Positions 35,060 through 42,906 of a DNA stretch of 64,000 nucleotides are shown one piece after another. Positions within the stretch are counted from its first letter, which is position 1. Every line of letters starts with the position of its first letter. The notes beneath the pieces were generated by a model, which was given only the letters and a program-made list of their open reading frames with translations, had not been told where the DNA came from and did not search any database. The position numbers and the translations under genes are program-made. The DNA is from Neorhizobium sp. NCHU2750 (lineage in GTDB: Bacteria > Pseudomonadota > Alphaproteobacteria > Rhizobiales > Rhizobiaceae): positions 1 to 64,000 of the forward strand of contig NZ_CP030828.1 of assembly GCF_003597675.1 (NCBI RefSeq), read 5' to 3'.

Positions 35060-35158
35060 GTTTCGTTCTTTTCTTCGGCCCCTCCTCTTGTTCTGCCAAA
35101 ATGCCGCACGTAGGAATTGTGCCATGCCCTGTCCATGACGGGGTTTGGGAGGAGTTTC

Positions 35159-35707
35159 ATGTCTGGTCTATTGGCGCTGTCGCGTTTCATCGACGCGGCA
35201 AACACGTTTATTGGAAAGGCCGTATCCTGGCTGATCCTGCTGGCGATCGTCATCAGTGCGGTCAACGCTGTCACCCGCAAGCTGTTCAATCTCAGTTCGA
35301 ATGCCTGGCTGGAGGCGCAATGGTACCTGTTTTCTGCAGGCTTTCTCGTCGCCGCAGGCTATACATTGCTCAACAATGAACATGTGAAGGTCGATCTCGT
35401 CTACGGTCGCCTGTCTCGCCGGACCCAGCTCTGGATCGAGATCCTGGGCACGCTCTTCTTCCTTTTCCCGTTCTGTCTGATCACCATTTATCTCTCCTGG
35501 CCGCGTGTGACGTCCAAGTTCATCAGCGGCGAGATTTCCAACAACACCGGTGGTCTCATCCTCTGGCCTGTCTGGGCACTCATTCCGCTCGGCTTTGGCC
35601 TGCTCGCGCTTCAAGGGGTGTCCGAGCTGATCAAGCGTATCGCGATCCTGCGCGGCGAACTGCCGGATGCAATCGCCCTGGCCGATGCCGAAGCGCAGAC
35701 CCTTTAA
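35159..35707 (+). CDS. TRAP transporter small membrane subunit (DctQ type)
   Basis: 182-residue four-helix membrane protein of a tripartite ATP-independent periplasmic transporter. Hydrophobic segments lie near residues 20-40, 58-75, 95-115 and 137-160; the family-typical LEAQWYLFSAGFLVAAGYTL is present. ATG 35159 follows GGGAGGAG; the frame extends to 35117 without support. It is 6 bp from the large subunit. Confidence 0.92.
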   Translation: MSGLLALSRFIDAANTFIGKAVSWLILLAIVISAVNAVTRKLFNLSSNAWLEAQWYLFSAGFLVAAGYTLLNNEHVKVDLVYGRLSRRTQLWIEILGTLFFLFPFCLITIYLSWPRVTSKFISGEISNNTGGLILWPVWALIPLGFGLLALQGVSELIKRIAILRGELPDAIALADAEAQTL

Positions 35708-35713
35708 GGACGG

Positions 35714-37360
35714 ATGGCAGCCATGTTTGCATTCTTCGCGGAAAATCTCGCGCCGATCATGTTCGGCTCCCTTATCGTCATCCTTCTGCTCGGTTATCCG
35801 GTTGCCTTCGCTTTGGCCTTTGTCGGCTTTGTGTTCGGTTTCATCGGCATCGAGATGGGTCTGCTTCCGGTCAACCTGTTCGGTGCGATCCCGGACCGCA
35901 TTTTCGGCCAGATGTCGAACGAAACCCTTCTGGCGATTCCGTTCTTCACCTTCATGGGGTTGATCCTCGAACGAAGCGGGATGGCGGAGGAACTGCTCGA
36001 TACGATCGGCCAACTGTTCGGTCCCGTGCGTGGCGGTCTGGCCTTCGCCGTCATATTCGTCGGCGCGATCCTCGCGGCAACCACCGGCGTCGTTGCGGCC
36101 TCCGTCATCTCGATGGGCCTGATCTCGCTGCCGATCATGCTGCGTTACGGCTATGACCGGCGTGTCGCTGCGGGAACGATTGCCGCCTCGGGCACGCTGG
36201 CGCAGATCATCCCGCCTAGCCTTGTGCTGATCATTCTCGCCGACCAGCTCGGTCGATCTGTCGGCGACATGTACAAGGGTGCGCTGATCCCCGGGCTTCT
36301 GCTCTGCGCGGCCTATGCCGGTTACATCATCCTGATGTCCTTCCTCTATCCGAAGACTGTGCCGGCTTTGCCGATCGAAGCGCGGTCGTTGCGTGGCTGG
36401 AAGCTGCTTCGCAAGGTGATCACCTCGCTGGTGCCGCCCTTGGTTCTGATCTTCCTGGTTCTTGGCACGATCTTCATCGGCCTTGCGACGCCGACCGAAG
36501 GCGGGGCCATGGGGGCGGTCGGCGCGCTGGCGCTCGCTGCCTTGAACCGCAGGCTCACGCTGGAGATCGTCAAGTCGGCGCTCTATGCGACCGTCAAGCT
36601 GTCGTCCTTCGTCATCTTCATTCTGCTCGGTGCGCGCGTCTTTTCGCTCACCTTCTATGGCGTCAACGGCCATATCTGGGTCGAACACCTGATGACATCC
36701 GTACCAGGAGGCGAAGTCGGCTTCTTGATCGTCGCCAACCTCCTGGTCTTCTTCCTGGCATTCTTCCTCGACTATTTCGAACTCGCCTTCATCATCGTGC
36801 CGCTTCTGGCGCCGGTGGCCGACAGCCTTGGCATCGATCTTATCTGGTTCGGCGTGATGCTGGCGATCAACATGCAGACTTCGTTCATGCATCCGCCATT
36901 CGGGTTCTCGCTGTTCTACCTGCGTTCGGTGGCGCCGACTCGTGCCTACAAGGACAGGATTACCGGAGCGACGATCCAGCCGGTGACGTCTGGCCAGATC
37001 TATATGGGCTCGATCCCGTTCCTGGTGATGCAGCTGATCATGGTGGTGATCGTGGTCGTGTTTCCGGGTCTCGTCACGCACTACAAGTCCGGTGCGGCGA
37101 CGGTTGATCCGAACTCGGTCCAGATCAATATCCCGATGCCGGGCGGCGATGGCCTCAATCCCTTCGGAAGCCCGTCCGCACCGTTCGGCGCCCCTGGTGC
37201 AACGCCCGAGGGCAGCCCGCCCGCACCGAGCTTCGGCGCTCCGCCGCCAAGCTTTGGAGCCCCTGCGCCCGGCAGCAGCGAGCCTGCTCCGCCAAGCTTC
37301 GGTTCGCCAACGCCGAATTTCGGCAGCCCGCAACCGAGTTCGGGGACGACCAATCCCTGA
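35714..37360 (+). CDS. TRAP transporter large membrane subunit (DctM type) with FG-repeat tail
   Basis: 548-residue multi-helix permease, the ion-coupled channel of the TRAP system. DctM motifs are GSLIVILLLGYPVAFALAFV, GAILAATTGVVAASVISMG, ASGTLAQIIPPSLVLIILAD and NMQTSFMHPPFGFSLFYL. The membrane domain ends near residue 470. About 74 further residues form a Pro/Gly/Ser/Ala-rich tail with six FG[AS]P units and no Lys or Arg, a tail not expected of ordinary DctM proteins. It is 73 bp upstream of the binding-protein gene. The substrate is probably an organic acid, from the family. Confidence 0.93.
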   Translation: MAAMFAFFAENLAPIMFGSLIVILLLGYPVAFALAFVGFVFGFIGIEMGLLPVNLFGAIPDRIFGQMSNETLLAIPFFTFMGLILERSGMAEELLDTIGQLFGPVRGGLAFAVIFVGAILAATTGVVAASVISMGLISLPIMLRYGYDRRVAAGTIAASGTLAQIIPPSLVLIILADQLGRSVGDMYKGALIPGLLLCAAYAGYIILMSFLYPKTVPALPIEARSLRGWKLLRKVITSLVPPLVLIFLVLGTIFIGLATPTEGGAMGAVGALALAALNRRLTLEIVKSALYATVKLSSFVIFILLGARVFSLTFYGVNGHIWVEHLMTSVPGGEVGFLIVANLLVFFLAFFLDYFELAFIIVPLLAPVADSLGIDLIWFGVMLAINMQTSFMHPPFGFSLFYLRSVAPTRAYKDRITGATIQPVTSGQIYMGSIPFLVMQLIMVVIVVVFPGLVTHYKSGAATVDPNSVQINIPMPGGDGLNPFGSPSAPFGAPGATPEGSPPAPSFGAPPPSFGAPAPGSSEPAPPSFGSPTPNFGSPQPSSGTTNP

Positions 37361-37433
37361 CTCAAGTTCCGGCGCCGCGGGCGCCGGGTCCATCCAGAAA
37401 GCTTTCCTGACAGATCAATTGAGGAGGATTGAA

Positions 37434-38549
37434 ATGAAAAAGGACGTAAGCCGTCGTGGCTTCATGACGAAAGGGGCGATCGCCGGCGTTGCGACCGCTG
37501 CCGGAGCCTCGCTCGCAGCGCCTGCCGTTGCGCAAAGCCTGCCATCGATACGCTGGCGCCTGACATCGGGCTTTCCGAACAATCTCGACACCATCTATGG
37601 CGGTGCCGTGGTCATGGCCGATGCGTTGTCCAAGATCACCGAAGGCAAATTCCAGATCCAGGTCTTCCAGGCCGGCGAAATCGTGCCCGGTGCGCAGGCG
37701 ATCGATGCGGTGAAGGAGAATACCGTCGAAATCGCCCATACCTGCGGCTATTACTTCACCGGCAAGGATCCGACATTCGCGATCGGTTCCACCATCCCGT
37801 TCGGCCTCAATGGGCGCCAGCAGAATGCCTGGCTTTATCATGGTGGCGGCAACGAGGCCTATAACGAGTTCCTGTCCAACTATGGCGTCGTCGGTATTCC
37901 CGGTGGTGCGACCGGGGCGCAGATGGGTGGCTGGTTCCGCAAGGAGATCAAGAGTGCCGCTGATCTGCAGGGCGTCAAGATGCGTATCGCAGGCGTTGCC
38001 GGCCAGGTTATGGCCAAGCTCGGCGTCGTTCCGCAGCAGCTTCCCGGCGGTGATATCTATCCGGCGCTGGAACGCGGCACGATCGATGCCGCTGAATGGA
38101 TCGGCCCTTACGACGACGAGCGGCTCGGCTTCTATCAGATCGCCAAGAATTACTATTATCCGGCCTATTGGGAAGGTGGCCTGACGATCCACTTCTTCGT
38201 CAACCAGGCTCAGTATGCCGGATTGCCGGACGCCTACAAGGCTGCGCTCGACACGGCCTGCAAGGCCGCAAACGTCAACATGCAGGCGCTATACGACGTC
38301 AAGAATACCTCGGCTATCCGCTCGCTTGTGGCCAAGGGTGTCCAGCTTCGGCCACTGCCGCGCGACGTGATGGACGCGGCCTACAAGGCCTCGTTCGAAC
38401 TCTACGGTGAATACAGCCAGAAATATCCGACCTGGGCGAAGATCTATCCGGGTTGGAAGAAATTCCGGGATGAAAGCTTCGAGTGGTTCCGCGTCGCGGA
38501 ATACAGCTACGACAGCTACATGTACGCTGCCCAGGCAGCCGGCAAGTAA
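37434..38549 (+). CDS. TRAP transporter periplasmic substrate-binding protein (DctP type)
   Basis: 371-residue receptor with a Tat-type signal (SRRGFMTKG near residues 6-14, then a hydrophobic stretch and AVAQ cleavage near 33). Family motifs include FQAGEIVPGAQAIDAVKENT, LQGVKMRIAGVAGQVMAKLG and QQLPGGDIYPALERGTIDAA with the WIGPYDD segment. The last motifs resemble the DctP subgroup that binds 2-oxo acids or similar monocarboxylates. GAGGAGG precedes ATG 37434; the open frame back to 37092 overlaps the permease gene. A large hairpin follows the stop. Confidence 0.93.
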   Translation: MKKDVSRRGFMTKGAIAGVATAAGASLAAPAVAQSLPSIRWRLTSGFPNNLDTIYGGAVVMADALSKITEGKFQIQVFQAGEIVPGAQAIDAVKENTVEIAHTCGYYFTGKDPTFAIGSTIPFGLNGRQQNAWLYHGGGNEAYNEFLSNYGVVGIPGGATGAQMGGWFRKEIKSAADLQGVKMRIAGVAGQVMAKLGVVPQQLPGGDIYPALERGTIDAAEWIGPYDDERLGFYQIAKNYYYPAYWEGGLTIHFFVNQAQYAGLPDAYKAALDTACKAANVNMQALYDVKNTSAIRSLVAKGVQLRPLPRDVMDAAYKASFELYGEYSQKYPTWAKIYPGWKKFRDESFEWFRVAEYSYDSYMYAAQAAGK

Positions 38550-38590: not shown

Positions 38591-38756
38591 TGCAGCATTC
38601 TCTGGCCGGTCTGCTATTTTCGCACCGCACGGCGACTACCGATTTTCATTCGCAGAAAATCGACGAGAGGGTCCTGTGCTCAATGACGCAGTCTCTTCAC
38701 GGAAGCAGGTAGGGTGATCACTACGGGGCAGGAGTAATCCGTGCCATGGCCCAGAA

Positions 38757-38796
38757 TCGAAAAAGCCTGCCGCGGGAGGAGGAGCGGCAGGCTTTT
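38757..38796 (-). terminator. Cuckoo hairpin 4 and intrinsic terminator
   Basis: A perfect 13 bp stem (38761-38773 with 38784-38796) has CCTCCTCCC in its 10-base loop. It is followed on the minus strand by a five-T run, so the same hairpin displays the motif and ends transcription. Confidence 0.8.
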
Positions 38797-38807
38797 CGAA
38801 TATATTT

Positions 38808-38840
38808 GAACAGCGACTGGGAGGAGGAGTGCCGCCGTTC
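38808..38840 (-). ncRNA. Cuckoo hairpin 3
   Basis: A ten-pair stem between 38808-38817 and 38831-38840, including two positions that pair only as G-U in the minus-strand RNA. The loop carries CCTCCTCCC. Confidence 0.75.
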
Positions 38841-38841
38841 C

Positions 38842-38879
38842 TTCAGGCTTCCCTTGGGAGGAGGAGCGGGTCGCCTGAA
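38842..38879 (-). ncRNA. Cuckoo hairpin 2
   Basis: Outer stem TTCAGGC/GCCTGAA (38842-38848 with 38873-38879), an internal loop, then three C-G pairs, with CCTCCTCCC in the loop on the minus strand. Confidence 0.75.
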
Positions 38880-38881
38880 AC

Positions 38882-38915
38882 ACGAAGCTCTGTGGGAGGA
38901 GGTACATCGCTTCGT
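38882..38915 (-). ncRNA. Cuckoo hairpin 1 (5'-most on the minus strand)
   Basis: Outer stem ACGAAGC/GCTTCGT (38882-38888 with 38909-38915), a 2x2 internal loop, then TGT/ACA, closing a loop with CCTCCTCCC on the minus strand. Confidence 0.75.
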
Positions 38916-38923
38916 TGGATGTA

Positions 38924-38929
38924 GTTATA
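38924..38929 (-). promoter_or_regulatory. Putative -10 box of the cuckoo RNA array
   Basis: Minus-strand TATAAC, placed so that the predicted start (about 38917) falls right at the first hairpin. No sigma-70 -35 is seen 16-18 bp upstream; a stress sigma factor is possible. A 10 bp palindrome AACGGCCGTT lies at 38941-38950. Confidence 0.4.
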
Positions 38930-39216
38930 CAGCATTCCCGAACGGCCGTTAGTGGCTCTGTCGCAGCCCAGCTATGCGCTCAGCGCATTGAGCGGCTAGT
39001 ATTTGCCTAAATTTGTGCCGATGGATGAGGCAGATGATGGATCATTGCGCGCCGCAGTCTGAGATACGGCGACGCGCAATGAAGTTTGACTATGTTCGGT
39101 CGCATCATTTGTGGCTTGCCACCACCAATTGGTCCTCTCGATATAGGCGGGCGCATCTTCTTGCGCTAAGACGAAGGGAGGAAGCTGCTGGCGGCTTTTC
39201 CGAATGGAGAATTTTT
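38930..39216. other. Intergenic region ahead of the IclR regulator
   Basis: The remainder of a 667 bp gap between the TRAP operon and the IclR gene. An open frame continues upstream of the chosen IclR start to 39013 but encodes nothing recognisable. AACGGCCGTT at 38941-38950 is the only palindrome noted. Confidence 0.4.
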
Positions 39217-40086
39217 TTGTCGCGTAAGCCTTTAAAACCCGGTCATGTCCGCACGGAAGGCAGCGAAGATGCTGCTGGCGGCAAATCGCCAACCGGTACG
39301 CAGACCTTGCTTCGCGGTCTGACCTTGCTGGAGCAGGTCGCTCAAGGCGTCTGTGATGTAAAGGGCCTTTCCGAACGCCTCGGCATGCCGCGCAGCACCA
39401 CCCACCGGGTGTTGAGCAATCTGGTGGCCGAAGGCTATCTGCATCACGTGCCGTATCAGGGTTACACCCTCGGCTATAAACTCATCTATCTGGGCACCCG
39501 CGCAAGGGAGCAGCGGCCCTTGGCCCAGCTGGCACGCCCTTTTCTCGAGAAGCTCGCGGATTTCTGTGGCGACACCATCCATCTCGGGCAGATCGAGGGC
39601 CCGCATGTCCTCTATCTCGATAAGCTGTCGGGGCAACGAGGCCTTGAAATGCGCTCACGCATCGGCCAGCGCATGCCGCTCGCCTCGACCGGCGTTGGCC
39701 GCGCGCTGATGCTGGGAATGACCGAGGAACGTTGGCGGGAAGTCTATGACGAGGCGGTACTGCTGCGCGAGCGGACTGCCAGCGACCGCCCCCCATTGCC
39801 GCAATGGCCCGAATATCTCGCGAAGATGCGTGATTATCGTCAGCGTGGCTGGGTGATGGAGTTTGAAGAGAACGAGATCGGTATCCGCTGTGTCGGCGCG
39901 CCCGTGCGTGACGTGAACGGCGAGGTCGTGGCAGCCGTCAGCATAGCGAGCGCCAGCTTTCATATGCCGGAAGCACGCATGTTCGAGCTTGGGCCGGTCG
40001 TCGCTGCAACCGCGCATTCCATTTCGCGGGCGCTTGGAGAAGCGCCCAGGGAGTTGTCATCACTGCCGGTATCGCTCCGGAAGTGA
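39217..40086 (+). CDS. IclR-family transcriptional regulator
   Basis: About 289 residues. The winged helix-turn-helix (TQTLLRGLTLLEQVAQGVCD, then VKGLSERLGMPRSTTHRVLS) is followed by the IclR effector domain (LEKLADFCGDTIHLGQIEGP, GQRMPLASTGVGRALMLGMT and VMEFEENEIGIRCVGAPVRD). I propose TTG 39217, with GGAGA 6 bases upstream, because it gives the usual family length; GTG 39247 is an alternative. The open frame reaches 39013 but its first 68 residues look non-coding. It ends 15 bp from the convergent galactonate operon, which it may regulate. Confidence 0.85.
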   Translation: MSRKPLKPGHVRTEGSEDAAGGKSPTGTQTLLRGLTLLEQVAQGVCDVKGLSERLGMPRSTTHRVLSNLVAEGYLHHVPYQGYTLGYKLIYLGTRAREQRPLAQLARPFLEKLADFCGDTIHLGQIEGPHVLYLDKLSGQRGLEMRSRIGQRMPLASTGVGRALMLGMTEERWREVYDEAVLLRERTASDRPPLPQWPEYLAKMRDYRQRGWVMEFEENEIGIRCVGAPVRDVNGEVVAAVSIASASFHMPEARMFELGPVVAATAHSISRALGEAPRELSSLPVSLRK

Positions 40087-40101: not shown

Positions 40102-41052
40102 TTAATAAGGATTGACCGGTGTTTTCAGCGGCTGCCCGCTGAAATGGGCGGCGACGTTGTCGAACACGAGATCGCCCATGGCCTTTCGGGTTGAATGGGT
40201 CGCGCTCGCCATGTGAGGCGTCACCACCACATTTGCGCGACCTTGCAGAGCCTTGGGCACTACCGGTTCGCACTCGAACACGTCGAGACCCGCACCGGCG
40301 ATCGTGCCTGCGTCCAGCGCTTCGATCAATGCTGCCTCGTCCACCACCGTGCCGCGAGCAATATTGATGAGAATGCCCTGCGGACCGAGCGCCTTCAAGA
40401 TCGTGGCGTCGACCAGAGCGCGTGTTTTATCGCCACCGTTGACGCAGATAACGAGAAAGTCGACCTCGGCCGCAAGCGTTGCGAGATCGGAGACGAACCG
40501 ATACGGGCAGCCGGACAGGGGTTGACGATCGGTATAGGTGATCTCCATGTCGAAGCCGGCGGCACGACGGGCAATCGTCTGGCCTATGCGGCCCATGCCG
40601 GCAATGCCGAGCTTGCCGCCAGAAACTTTCTTGGTCCAGGTAAAGCCGCCATTTGCCCAGTCGCCGCGCTCGACGAAGCGTTGGGCTTCGACGATCTGGC
40701 GGGACGTGGCAAGCAGCAGGCCCATTGCCATGTCTGCGACATCGTCCGTCAGAACGCCCGGCGTATTGGTCACTGCGATGCCGCGTGCATGGGCTGCTGC
40801 CACGTCGATACCGTCGTAGCCGACGCCGAAATCGGCGATCAGTTCCAGTTTGGGGAAGCGGTCGATGAATTCGGCCGTGACGACCGATTCACCATTGACT
40901 GCGAGAACGCGCGCATTCTGCGCGGCCTTGTTCTGCTCCGTCACGCTCAGAGTTTCCCAGTCGGCAAGCGTGCAGGTTTCATCCAGACGCTGCGCCAGGG
41001 CCGGTGGAAGGAAAGCGGCCTTGACGACCGTCGCTTCGGTCTTGTCGAACAT
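40102..41052 (-). CDS. D-isomer-specific 2-hydroxyacid dehydrogenase (GhrB/glyoxylate reductase-like)
   Basis: 316-residue NAD(P)-dependent 2-keto-acid reductase. The Rossmann motif GIAGMGRIGQTIARRAAGF is near residue 150. The catalytic Arg lies in FLVICVNGGDKTRALVDATI, the Glu near ALDAGTIAGAGLDVFECEP, and the His in VVTPHMASATHSTRKAMGD. Start ATG 41052 is 20 bp after dgoD; upstream codons to 41109 overlap dgoD. It is last in the galactonate operon, where it might recycle glyoxylate, hydroxypyruvate or another 2-keto acid; no standard step of D-galactonate breakdown needs it. Confidence 0.85.
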   Translation of the reverse strand: MFDKTEATVVKAAFLPPALAQRLDETCTLADWETLSVTEQNKAAQNARVLAVNGESVVTAEFIDRFPKLELIADFGVGYDGIDVAAAHARGIAVTNTPGVLTDDVADMAMGLLLATSRQIVEAQRFVERGDWANGGFTWTKKVSGGKLGIAGMGRIGQTIARRAAGFDMEITYTDRQPLSGCPYRFVSDLATLAAEVDFLVICVNGGDKTRALVDATILKALGPQGILINIARGTVVDEAALIEALDAGTIAGAGLDVFECEPVVPKALQGRANVVVTPHMASATHSTRKAMGDLVFDNVAAHFSGQPLKTPVNPY

Positions 41053-41072
41053 GATGATCTCTTTCTTCTCGC

Positions 41073-42221
41073 TTACCACTCGGCCACGGCGCCATCGGCA
41101 AGCCGCCATACCGGGTTGCGCCAGTCGGGGGCTGTCTTCGAGCGCTCGATGACCAGCGCTTCGTCAACCTCGACACCGAGACCGGGCCGCTTGTTGGGAT
41201 AGAACCAGCCGCCATCGATGCGGAAGTCATCCTTGTTGGCGACATAGTCGAACAGTTCGGCACCCTTGTTGTAGTGGATACCCATGCTCTGTTCCTGAAA
41301 CACGGCATTGTGCGAGACGAAGTCGACCGCAAGGCAGGAGGCAAGCGCCAAAGGCCCAAGCGGGCAATGGGGCGCAAGCGCGACATCGTAGGCCTCGGCC
41401 ATCGCGGCAATGCGGAAGCATTCCGAGACACCGCCCGCATGGCTGAGGTCGGGCTGCAGAATAGAGATGCCGCCGCCCTCGAGGACACGCTTGAAATCGA
41501 AGCGCGAGAACATCCGCTCGCCGGCCGCGATCGGGATATGTGTCTGGGCCGCAAGGCGAGGGTAATATTCTGCCTGCTCTGCCAGAACCGGTTCTTCGAT
41601 GAACAGGGGTCTATAGGGCTCAAGCTCATGAATGAGAACTTTGGCCATGGGCGCTGCGACGCGGCCGTGGAAATCGATGCCGAACTCGATCGTATTGCCG
41701 AAGGTCTGGCGAATTTCCGCCACCACGGCGACCGCGGCATCGATCTTCGCCGAGCTGTCGATGATGCCCATTTCTTCGCAGCCGTTCAGCTTGAACGTGT
41801 CGAAGCCGATTTCCTGCAGCTTGCGGATATTGGCTATGACATCGGCCGGGCGATCGCCGCCCACCCAGGAATAGGCCTTGACGCGATCGCGGACCAGGCC
41901 GCCAAGCAGCTCGTACACCGGTGCGTTGAGGACTTTGCCCTTGATGTCCCACAGAGCCTGATCGATGCCGGCGATCGCGCTCATCAGGATCGGGCCGCCG
42001 CGATAGAAGCCGGCGCGATAAAGCACCTGCCACAAGTCGTTGATGCGAGACGGATCCTTGCCGATCAGATAGTCGCTAAGTTCGTGGACCGCTGCCTCGA
42101 CGCTGCGGGCACGCCCCTCGATAACCGGTTCGCCCCAACCGGTAATGCCCTCATCCGTCTCGATTTTGAGAAACATCCAGCGGGGTGGCAGGCGATAGGT
42201 GGTAAGTTTGGTGATCTTCAT
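41073..42221 (-). CDS. dgoD: D-galactonate dehydratase (mandelate racemase/enolase superfamily)
   Basis: Removes water from D-galactonate to give 2-keto-3-deoxygalactonate. The 382 residues equal the usual DgoD length. It starts [20 protein letters not shown], and metal and catalytic residues are in place: FGIDFHGRV (Asp and the DgoD-type His), LFIEEPVL (Glu), [15 protein letters not shown] (Glu), [10 protein letters not shown] and LAPHCPLGP (base His). ATG 42221 follows AGGA; the frame extends to 42281 inside the intergenic gap and dgoA end. It lies between dgoA and the dehydrogenase. Confidence 0.92.
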
Positions 42222-42255
42222 TGAAATGCGTCCTGATTGGAAATTGCCGGCGCGA

Positions 42256-42906
42256 TCACGCGCCGGCACGTCCGGCAGCAAACGCGGCCACGAAGCGGCG
42301 GGCCTCGGCGGTCAATTCCTGCCATTTTCCGGCGGAGATGAGATCCCTGCGGACGAGATTGCTGCCGACGCCGGCGGCGTAAGCGCCGGCACGCGCAAAT
42401 GCTTCGAGATTGTCCAGGCCAACGCCGCCCACCGGAATGAGCGCGGCCTCGGCAAACGGTCCCCTCAGGTCCTTGATGTAGCCGGGGCCGAGACCGCCGG
42501 CCGGGAACAGCTTGAGCAGGTCGCAACCAAGCCTGTGAGCCTTGACGACTTCGGTCGGCGTCGTGACCGACGGGATCATCAGTCGCTGCCGTTCGTGTAC
42601 CGTCGCAATGACGTCCGGATCAAAGTTGGGAGCCAGGACGAAATCGGCTCCCGCATCGAGCGCCAGTGTCGCTGACACAGGGTTGATGACGGTACCGGCG
42701 CCGATCCGCATGCGGTCTCCGAGCGCTGCCTTCAGCGCCCGGATACCCTCGTAGACAGAAGGGCTGTTGCAGGTGATCTCGAACACCTTGACGCCACCTT
42801 CGAGCAGCGCCTGGGCCGTCGGCACCACGTCCGCGGGCGAAAGCCCGCGGGATATGGCGATGATGCCGCTTTCCCGGATCGTGGTGACAACCTCGTGTTT
42901 CAGCAT
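42256..42906 (-). CDS. dgoA: 2-dehydro-3-deoxy-6-phosphogalactonate aldolase (KDPG aldolase family)
   Basis: Cleaves 2-keto-3-deoxy-6-phosphogalactonate to pyruvate and glyceraldehyde 3-phosphate. The 216-residue TIM-barrel class I aldolase shows [13 protein letters not shown] (catalytic Glu), [11 protein letters not shown], and the Schiff-base lysine in [17 protein letters not shown], with the phosphate loop [10 protein letters not shown]. Assignment to the galactonate rather than the gluconate pathway rests on the dgoK, dgoT and dgoD neighbours. Gaps are 27 bp from dgoT and 34 bp to dgoD. Confidence 0.9.

Follow-up and report, generated by a model that had tools for sequence, protein, structure and literature searches.

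A previously unannotated four-hairpin small RNA gene of the ar14/SmelA099 kind in Neorhizobium sp. NCHU2750

Between dctP and an IclR-type regulator gene of Neorhizobium sp. NCHU2750, an unannotated interval carries four copies of GGGAGGAGG on the plus strand, which raises the question of what this array is, which strand is read and what it might do. The copies lie at 38774, 38819, 38856 and 38894, spaced 45, 37 and 38 bp apart as an earlier note on this DNA had reported (37-45 bp), and no further copy occurs on either strand of the window, by which we mean the whole 64-kb stretch of DNA analysed. The window would be expected to hold 0.66 copies. Four copies arose in 0 of 100 dinucleotide shuffles, and when 64 kb of sequence was simulated 100 times under an order-2 Markov model, at most two fell within any 150 nt; because neither the shuffles nor the simulations ever match the array, its clustering is not chance. 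The surroundings, comprising the TRAP transporter and IclR-type genes together with genes for a 2-hydroxyacid dehydrogenase, a mandelate-racemase-like enolase and a KDPG-type aldolase (40102-42906, minus strand), look like a sugar-acid catabolic cluster.

RNA folding of the minus strand from 38917 to 38757 yielded four successive hairpins with CCUCCUCCC in every loop, in agreement with the earlier reading of the loops. This fold reaches -74 kcal/mol (z -6.2) and was equalled by 0 of 200 shuffles, compared to a z of -1.3 on the plus strand, where 23 of 200 shuffles folded equally well. Two G-U pairs in hairpin 3 become A-C on the plus strand, the mismatches that the earlier note had seen in one stem, and UUUUU directly follows the last hairpin, as befits the intrinsic terminator that it had proposed. 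A terminator scan did not detect this minus-strand terminator because the loop of hairpin 4 exceeds the scan's loop limit. The same segment, 38757-38799, also folds into a hairpin on the plus strand, where an A tract precedes it and TTTTC follows, so that it may double as a terminator for the convergent dctQMP operon. The features of the locus are collected in Table 1.

Table 1. Features of the array and its surroundings (window coordinates)
Feature	Position	Strand	Basis
TRAP transporter genes dctQ, dctM, dctP (convergent with the array)	35159..38549	plus	Pfam DctQ, DctM, DctP
dctQ translation start (Shine-Dalgarno site plus start codon), GGGAGGAGTTTCATG	35147..35161	plus	complementary to the loops over 8 nt without mismatch
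sRNA gene with four CCUCCUCCC hairpins (predicted RNA ~161 nt)	38757..38917	minus	ar14 and R1 matches
Hairpin 1, nearest the 5' end, not covered by the ar14 match	38882..38915	minus	fold and alignment
Hairpin 2	38841..38880	minus	fold and alignment
Hairpin 3	38808..38840	minus	fold and alignment
AT-rich linker, ahead of hairpin 4	38800..38807	minus	unpaired in fold
Hairpin 4, intrinsic terminator with U5 tract	38757..38799	minus	sequence and fold
Loop motif 1, CCUCCUCCC	38894..38902	minus	motif search
Loop motif 2, CCUCCUCCC	38856..38864	minus	motif search
Loop motif 3, CCUCCUCCC	38819..38827	minus	motif search
Loop motif 4, CCUCCUCCC	38774..38782	minus	motif search
-10 box TATAAC	38924..38929	minus	sequence; -12 to -7 of the SmelA099-predicted start
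Weak -35-like stretch CACTAAC	38948..38954	minus	sequence only
Adjoining conserved element GCATAGCTGGGCTGC	38963..38977	minus	upstream alignment
LsrB-like box TGCGCTGAGCGCAT, differing from TGCA-N6-GCAT at one position	38974..38987	minus	upstream alignment
IclR-type regulator frame; start approximate	39013..40086	plus	Pfam IclR_C, HTH_IclR

A covariance-model search, a check that the earlier note had proposed, placed the array in a described family. The Rfam ar14 model (RF02344) matches 38758-38883 at 99.6 bits, above its cut-off of 58.8, over positions 1-123 of its 123. The match spans hairpins 2-4, with three CCUCCUCCC loops of which the last belongs to a terminator, and leaves an additional hairpin at the 5' end. 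We also built a model, R1, from the three four-loop copies of the NCHU2750 genome; it matches the window at 38754-38918 with 175 bits, the window copy being one of its three training sequences. On pSymA of S. meliloti, R1 recovered a full-length match at 1328172-1328335 on the minus strand (111.8 bits). This is SmelA099 (smrA6), a 160-nt RNA found by cDNA sequencing at 1328175-1328334, minus strand (PMC2873474; coordinates also in PMC7143759). The R1 ends differ from the published ones by 1-3 nt, and the window RNA is 77% identical to SmelA099 over 168 alignment columns. Its predicted ends were placed by alignment with those of SmelA099 and agree with the single RNA of about 160 nt suggested earlier.

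Other families were rejected on score: CcsR (RF02791; CcsR1 model 34.3 bits, cut-off 65.3), ar7 (27.5 bits, cut-off 60) and FsrA (24 bits, cut-off 80). The kinship with cuckoo-motif RNAs claimed in the earlier note is thus borne out by ar14 and SmelA099, whereas its link to CcsR fails both on the model score and on the lack of an adjoining DUF1127 gene. The same note had considered four loops with a shared terminator a possibly undescribed arrangement. SmelA075 and SmelA099 were described in 2011 with three and four hairpins and similar CCUCCUCCC loops, and were proposed to belong to a single family whose members differ in module number (PMC3927594 section 2.7); since the four hairpins of SmelA099 (family RFMSmelA099 in PMC3927594) have been in print from that year, the arrangement is not new. 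Together our results establish the array as a real, well-supported and previously unannotated sRNA gene of a described family, and the window RNA, if taken alone, as an ordinary member of the ar14/SmelA099 ('cuckoo') kind. The cuckoo RNA family was reportedly defined by Reinkensmeier and Giegerich in 2015 by means of a thermodynamic matcher.

Comparison with characterized RNAs places the window RNA more closely. It has in common with SmelA099 the four CCUCCUCCC hairpins, the common terminator and the length of about 160 nt, but SmelA099 is without an LsrB-like box (at one mismatch or fewer) upstream and the window copy has one. Upstream of the ar14 RNA NfeR1 lies an LsrB site that the one-mismatch box of the window copy resembles, and hairpins 2-4 of the window RNA match the whole ar14 model; ar14 has three hairpins, to which the window RNA adds a fourth at the 5' end. 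CcsR1-4 of Rhodobacter sphaeroides are alike in their CCUCCUCCC loops and tandem hairpins but have two loops per RNA, are four RNAs cut from a precursor common with ccaF1, and have an RpoHI/RpoHII promoter (PMC10253847, PMC3927594). AbcR1 and AbcR2 (ar15) resemble it in aSD-type seeds, a link to LsrB and transporter mRNA targets (PMC7143759, PMC10746234), yet their structure is unlike that of the window RNA and the window region has no ar15 match.

The NCHU2750 genome contains seven ar14 matches, six of them above the cut-off. Three are four-loop copies, on contigs C2 (the window's), C3 and C4, and three are three-loop copies, all on the large contig C1. As repC is present on C2, C3, C4, C5 and C6 and absent from C1, the four-loop copies here sit on repABC-type replicons. 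The seventh match (L007, C1:4115646-4115768, minus strand) scores 53 bits and lacks the CTCCTCC motif; it has three hairpins with C-rich loops such as GTCCCCC and is perhaps an ar7 relative. Every one of 35 same-genus genomes has ar14 matches, with 3-9 per genome. We searched 57 genomes of the genus with R1 and, from the matches listed, fetched 80 of the best besides the three of NCHU2750, one or two of them at the score border. Strict CTCCTCC motifs number four in 71 of these 83 loci, three in 6, two in 5 and one in 1; since the loci are the best R1 matches, 71 of 83 is not a rate. Among the fetched loci, at least 43 of the 57 genomes carry a strict four-motif array. R1 scores leave no clean gap between four-motif loci and those with fewer motifs: among fetched loci, four strict motifs occur down to 82.2 bits, and the three at the bottom of the set (79.5, 79.3 and 75.8 bits) carry three.

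Beyond the genus, 486 of 72,556 plasmid records in PLSDB match the array, 453 of them over at least 80% of it, in a count irrespective of motif number; all but one (Roseateles) bear rhizobial genus names, and no plasmid record matches the 5-kb surroundings of the array over 80%. A three-motif pattern search of genome contigs returned at least 120 loci, which, when grouped with gaps of up to 75 nt so that neighbouring RNAs may be joined, comprise 69 with four motifs, 18 with three and 33 with five to seventeen. Four loops are therefore not unusual, being present in 69 of the 120 loci listed. Among the 80 of these loci with a name listed, the long arrays, in which as many as 17 CTCCTCC motifs follow one another about every 40 nt (L246, L249, L181 and others), come in many cases from Rhodobacterales by name, and a six-motif Mesorhizobium array (L209) extends long arrays past those names. 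Three-motif arrays in assembled genomes labelled Clostridiales (L183) and Xylophilus (L222) are probably mis-binned contigs.

Alignment of the 71 strict four-motif copies (A2; the 12 loci with fewer motifs left out, the window's own fold applied) reveals covarying stems and fixed loops. Compensatory changes of the kind that the earlier note had proposed to look for are frequent, with 31 of 47 base pairs changed on both sides in at least one relative. Both-side changes fill 189 cells against 72.9 in shuffles, and 0 of 500 shuffles reach that value, in a comparison that favours the fold by the relatedness of the aligned sequences. Similarly, 89.7% of cells are paired compared to 36-45% with partners slid by one to three columns, a control tilted towards the fold because the fold was drawn from one aligned sequence. 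Both-side changes affect all ten pairs of hairpin 1, 10 of 11 in hairpin 2 (79.1% of cells paired) and 7 of 10 in hairpin 3 (97.2% of cells paired); the terminator stem of hairpin 4 is near-invariant. Stem-column identity is 82.6, 72.5, 86.9 and 93.5% for hairpins 1 to 4, and loop-motif columns are 98.7-99.5% identical, a near-invariance that is partly built in because the loci were chosen for four strict CTCCTCC motifs. Loops are thus conserved by sequence and stems by pairing. The earlier view, in which selection acts on the loop rather than the stem, is too strong, because compensatory changes maintain pairing in stems of 73-94% identity, beside about 99% in the loops. Loops varying while stems stay fixed, which the earlier note named as evidence against its reading, was not seen in the 71 copies, chosen as they were for strict motifs.

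The alignment also identifies the strand. Cells that read G-U on the minus strand outnumber A-C cells by 240 to 58, indicating that the minus strand is the RNA, as first proposed and in keeping with the fold z-scores (-6.2 against -1.3). We gave almost no credence to the repeat being coding, or serving on the plus strand as GGGAGGAGG. Open frames do span the array on both strands (68 aa on plus, 75 aa on minus), yet neither has a Pfam match, the copies do not share a single reading frame and their spacing varies among relatives; a plus-strand function is contradicted in turn by a fold little above shuffles and by the G-U excess.

Upstream of the RNA, the TATAAC box named in the earlier note stands at the correct spot for a -10 element, and GTAT is conserved at this position in the upstream alignment of relatives. 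The -35 region is weak, and a consensus scan found no sigma-70 pair on either strand. Two further elements are shared with relatives. TGCA-N6-GCAT, with at most one mismatch, precedes 44 of the 71 copies (10 exact, 34 with one mismatch) and was found in 61 of 1270 background pieces; its position is mostly 68-69 nt ahead of the model start, and the window box, with one mismatch, is at -69. The remaining 27 four-loop relatives and SmelA099 are without the box at this threshold. The adjoining element GCATRNCTGNNYTGY occurs in 43 of the 71 copies, always between -58 and -62, and in 2 of 1281 background pieces; GCATGGCTGGGTTGC upstream of SmelA099 fits it, and the window copy carries both elements. 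NfeR1 has an LsrB site, TGCA-N6-GCAT, near -72 to -57 (PMC10746234). By analogy, the window RNA is probably activated by an LsrB-like regulator. In S. meliloti, lsrB sits beside tandem ar15 (AbcR) RNAs (PMC7143759), and the NCHU2750 genome has tandem ar15 RNAs with an adjoining LysR gene, outside the window array.

These upstream elements bear on whether the window copy is used at all. With seven ar14 matches in the genome, it could be a silent or seldom used plasmid-type duplicate while other family copies do the work, and in S. meliloti one of six NfeR1 copies was reliably detected on Northern blots (PMC7143759). However, the window copy retains four intact loops and paired stems along with its terminator, its -10 box and the two upstream elements, and its pSymA homologue SmelA099 was seen in cDNA sequencing at 160 nt (PMC2873474), so that we consider silence unlikely.

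NfeR1 also provides a model for function. In reporter assays it silences ntrB and two transporter mRNAs; its three loops are redundant, its action is Hfq-independent, LsrB activates it and NtrC represses it (PMC10746234, PMC7143759). Homology suggests that the window RNA would behave in the same way, with four loops in place of three. On the sequence, structure, strand, family match, conserved upstream elements and complementarity established here, our preferred reading, to which we give a probability of roughly 0.7, is a trans-acting ar14/SmelA099-type sRNA under LsrB-like activation that masks the Shine-Dalgarno sites of transport-biased mRNAs. Transcription of the minus strand would start from a promoter whose -10 is good and whose -35 is poor and yield a single RNA of about 161 nt, with an LsrB-like LysR activator acting at the upstream box. 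The four CCUCCUCCC loops, as interchangeable seeds, would pair with G-rich Shine-Dalgarno sites and exclude ribosomes, and so depress translation of a group of mRNAs in which nutrient-transport functions are over-represented; the neighbouring TRAP operon, at dctQ, may be among them. Transcription of this copy, activation by LsrB, translational repression and loop redundancy are here modelled on NfeR1 and SmelA099.

We searched the NCHU2750 genome for sites that the loops might recognize. GGGAGGAG-N3-9-ATG, whose 8 nt complement the loops perfectly, occurs 44 times compared to 5 for a reversed control; GGAGG-rich sites before genes are expected in any case, and a control strong site, GAAGGAGA, exceeds its own reversed control too (49 against 10). 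What differs is the genes behind the sites. We fetched 30 of the 44 candidate sites; with nine frames shorter than 90 aa and one duplicate set aside, 20 different frames remained, and ten encode transport proteins by Pfam (SBP_bac_1 twice, ABC_tran, EamA, TctC, DctQ twice, SBP_bac_5, DctP and Peripla_BP_6). The 30 sites fetched out of 49 for the control gave 18 frames; two lack a Pfam family and may not be genes, and two encode transport proteins (DctP, ExbD). The difference gives a one-sided p of 0.012, and 0.007 for frames with a Pfam family only (10 of 17 against 2 of 16). Four identical loops look suited to blocking the ribosome-binding sites of many mRNAs, especially those of nutrient transporters, and complementarity makes dctQ, the first gene of the convergent TRAP operon, a candidate target. 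For a previously unannotated stretch the analysis supplies a family, a strand, predicted ends and a testable mode of action, along with the alignment of 71 four-loop copies. One of the short candidate-site frames (under 90 aa) is antisense to a three-loop array.

The loops might instead mimic the 16S rRNA 3' end as a decoy and bind a CCUCC-recognising protein or factor in place of mRNAs. We know of no protein partner of ar14 RNAs, which counts against this. The loop motif does hold the anti-Shine-Dalgarno core, called the aSD sequence in PMC3927594, and the DUF1127 protein CcaF1 binds RNA including CcsR RNAs (PMC10253847); silencing by NfeR1, on the other hand, is lost on mutating its three loops and is explained by mRNA pairing (PMC10746234), leaving a decoy role very improbable.

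A further question is whether the 161-nt RNA is itself the active form. CcsR1-4 are produced by RNase E processing (PMC10253847, PMC8307010), SmelA075 has shorter forms without one or two stem-loops (PMC2873474), and the AT-rich linker lies directly before hairpin 4, all of which would suit a precursor whose shorter hairpin pieces act. We doubt this for the window RNA: SmelA099 is listed as a single 160-nt RNA (PMC2873474), the CcsR model match is under its cut-off and no DUF1127 gene is near the array.

DUF1127 genes do accompany some relatives, as they accompany such RNAs in the CIN1 locus (PMC10253847). A DUF1127 gene lies 140-197 nt upstream on the same strand at 23 of the 71 four-motif loci, and a DEDDh-type exonuclease gene (PF00929), also upstream on the same strand, at 14, three of which have DUF1127 too. 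In L089, L096 and L106 an exonuclease gene comes first, then DUF1127, then the array. The exonuclease genes end in LTAFDRFRA, mostly about 100 nt from the array (for example L073:1851-2894), and one, matched in two pieces, is upstream of the NCHU2750 array on C4 (L006). Across the 57 genomes, 16 of 28 exonuclease matches are within 0.9 kb of an array and 12 are not, among the arrays listed. A limited literature search found no publication on an exonuclease-array link in rhizobia, which is not proof of absence. The window copy has neither gene just upstream, and the five DUF1127 matches of the NCHU2750 genome are all on C1, none on C2.

From this pattern one may venture, as a long shot, that the four-loop form is a plasmid-borne branch, each replicon supplying a dose of its own: a portable Shine-Dalgarno-masking module, often with suspected upstream processing partners (the DEDDh exonuclease, the DUF1127 protein, or both) that would retune the nutrient uptake of a recipient host, the window copy being a partnerless module regulating the adjoining TRAP operon. 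If the plasmid-borne exonuclease- or DUF1127-linked form were a module of its own, it would illustrate how plasmids can equip a newly entered host with a wide-acting translational regulator. Of the fetched relatives, only L097 has neighbours in common with the window array, namely an IclR gene (82% over 288 aa) and a 2-hydroxyacid dehydrogenase gene (84% over 322 aa); dctM and dctP were not found in the 3-kb flanks of its array. On C1 of NCHU2750, at 2205180-2206005, a three-loop ar14 copy is followed by two DUF1127 genes on the same strand, an order that is CIN1-like but with the RNA first.
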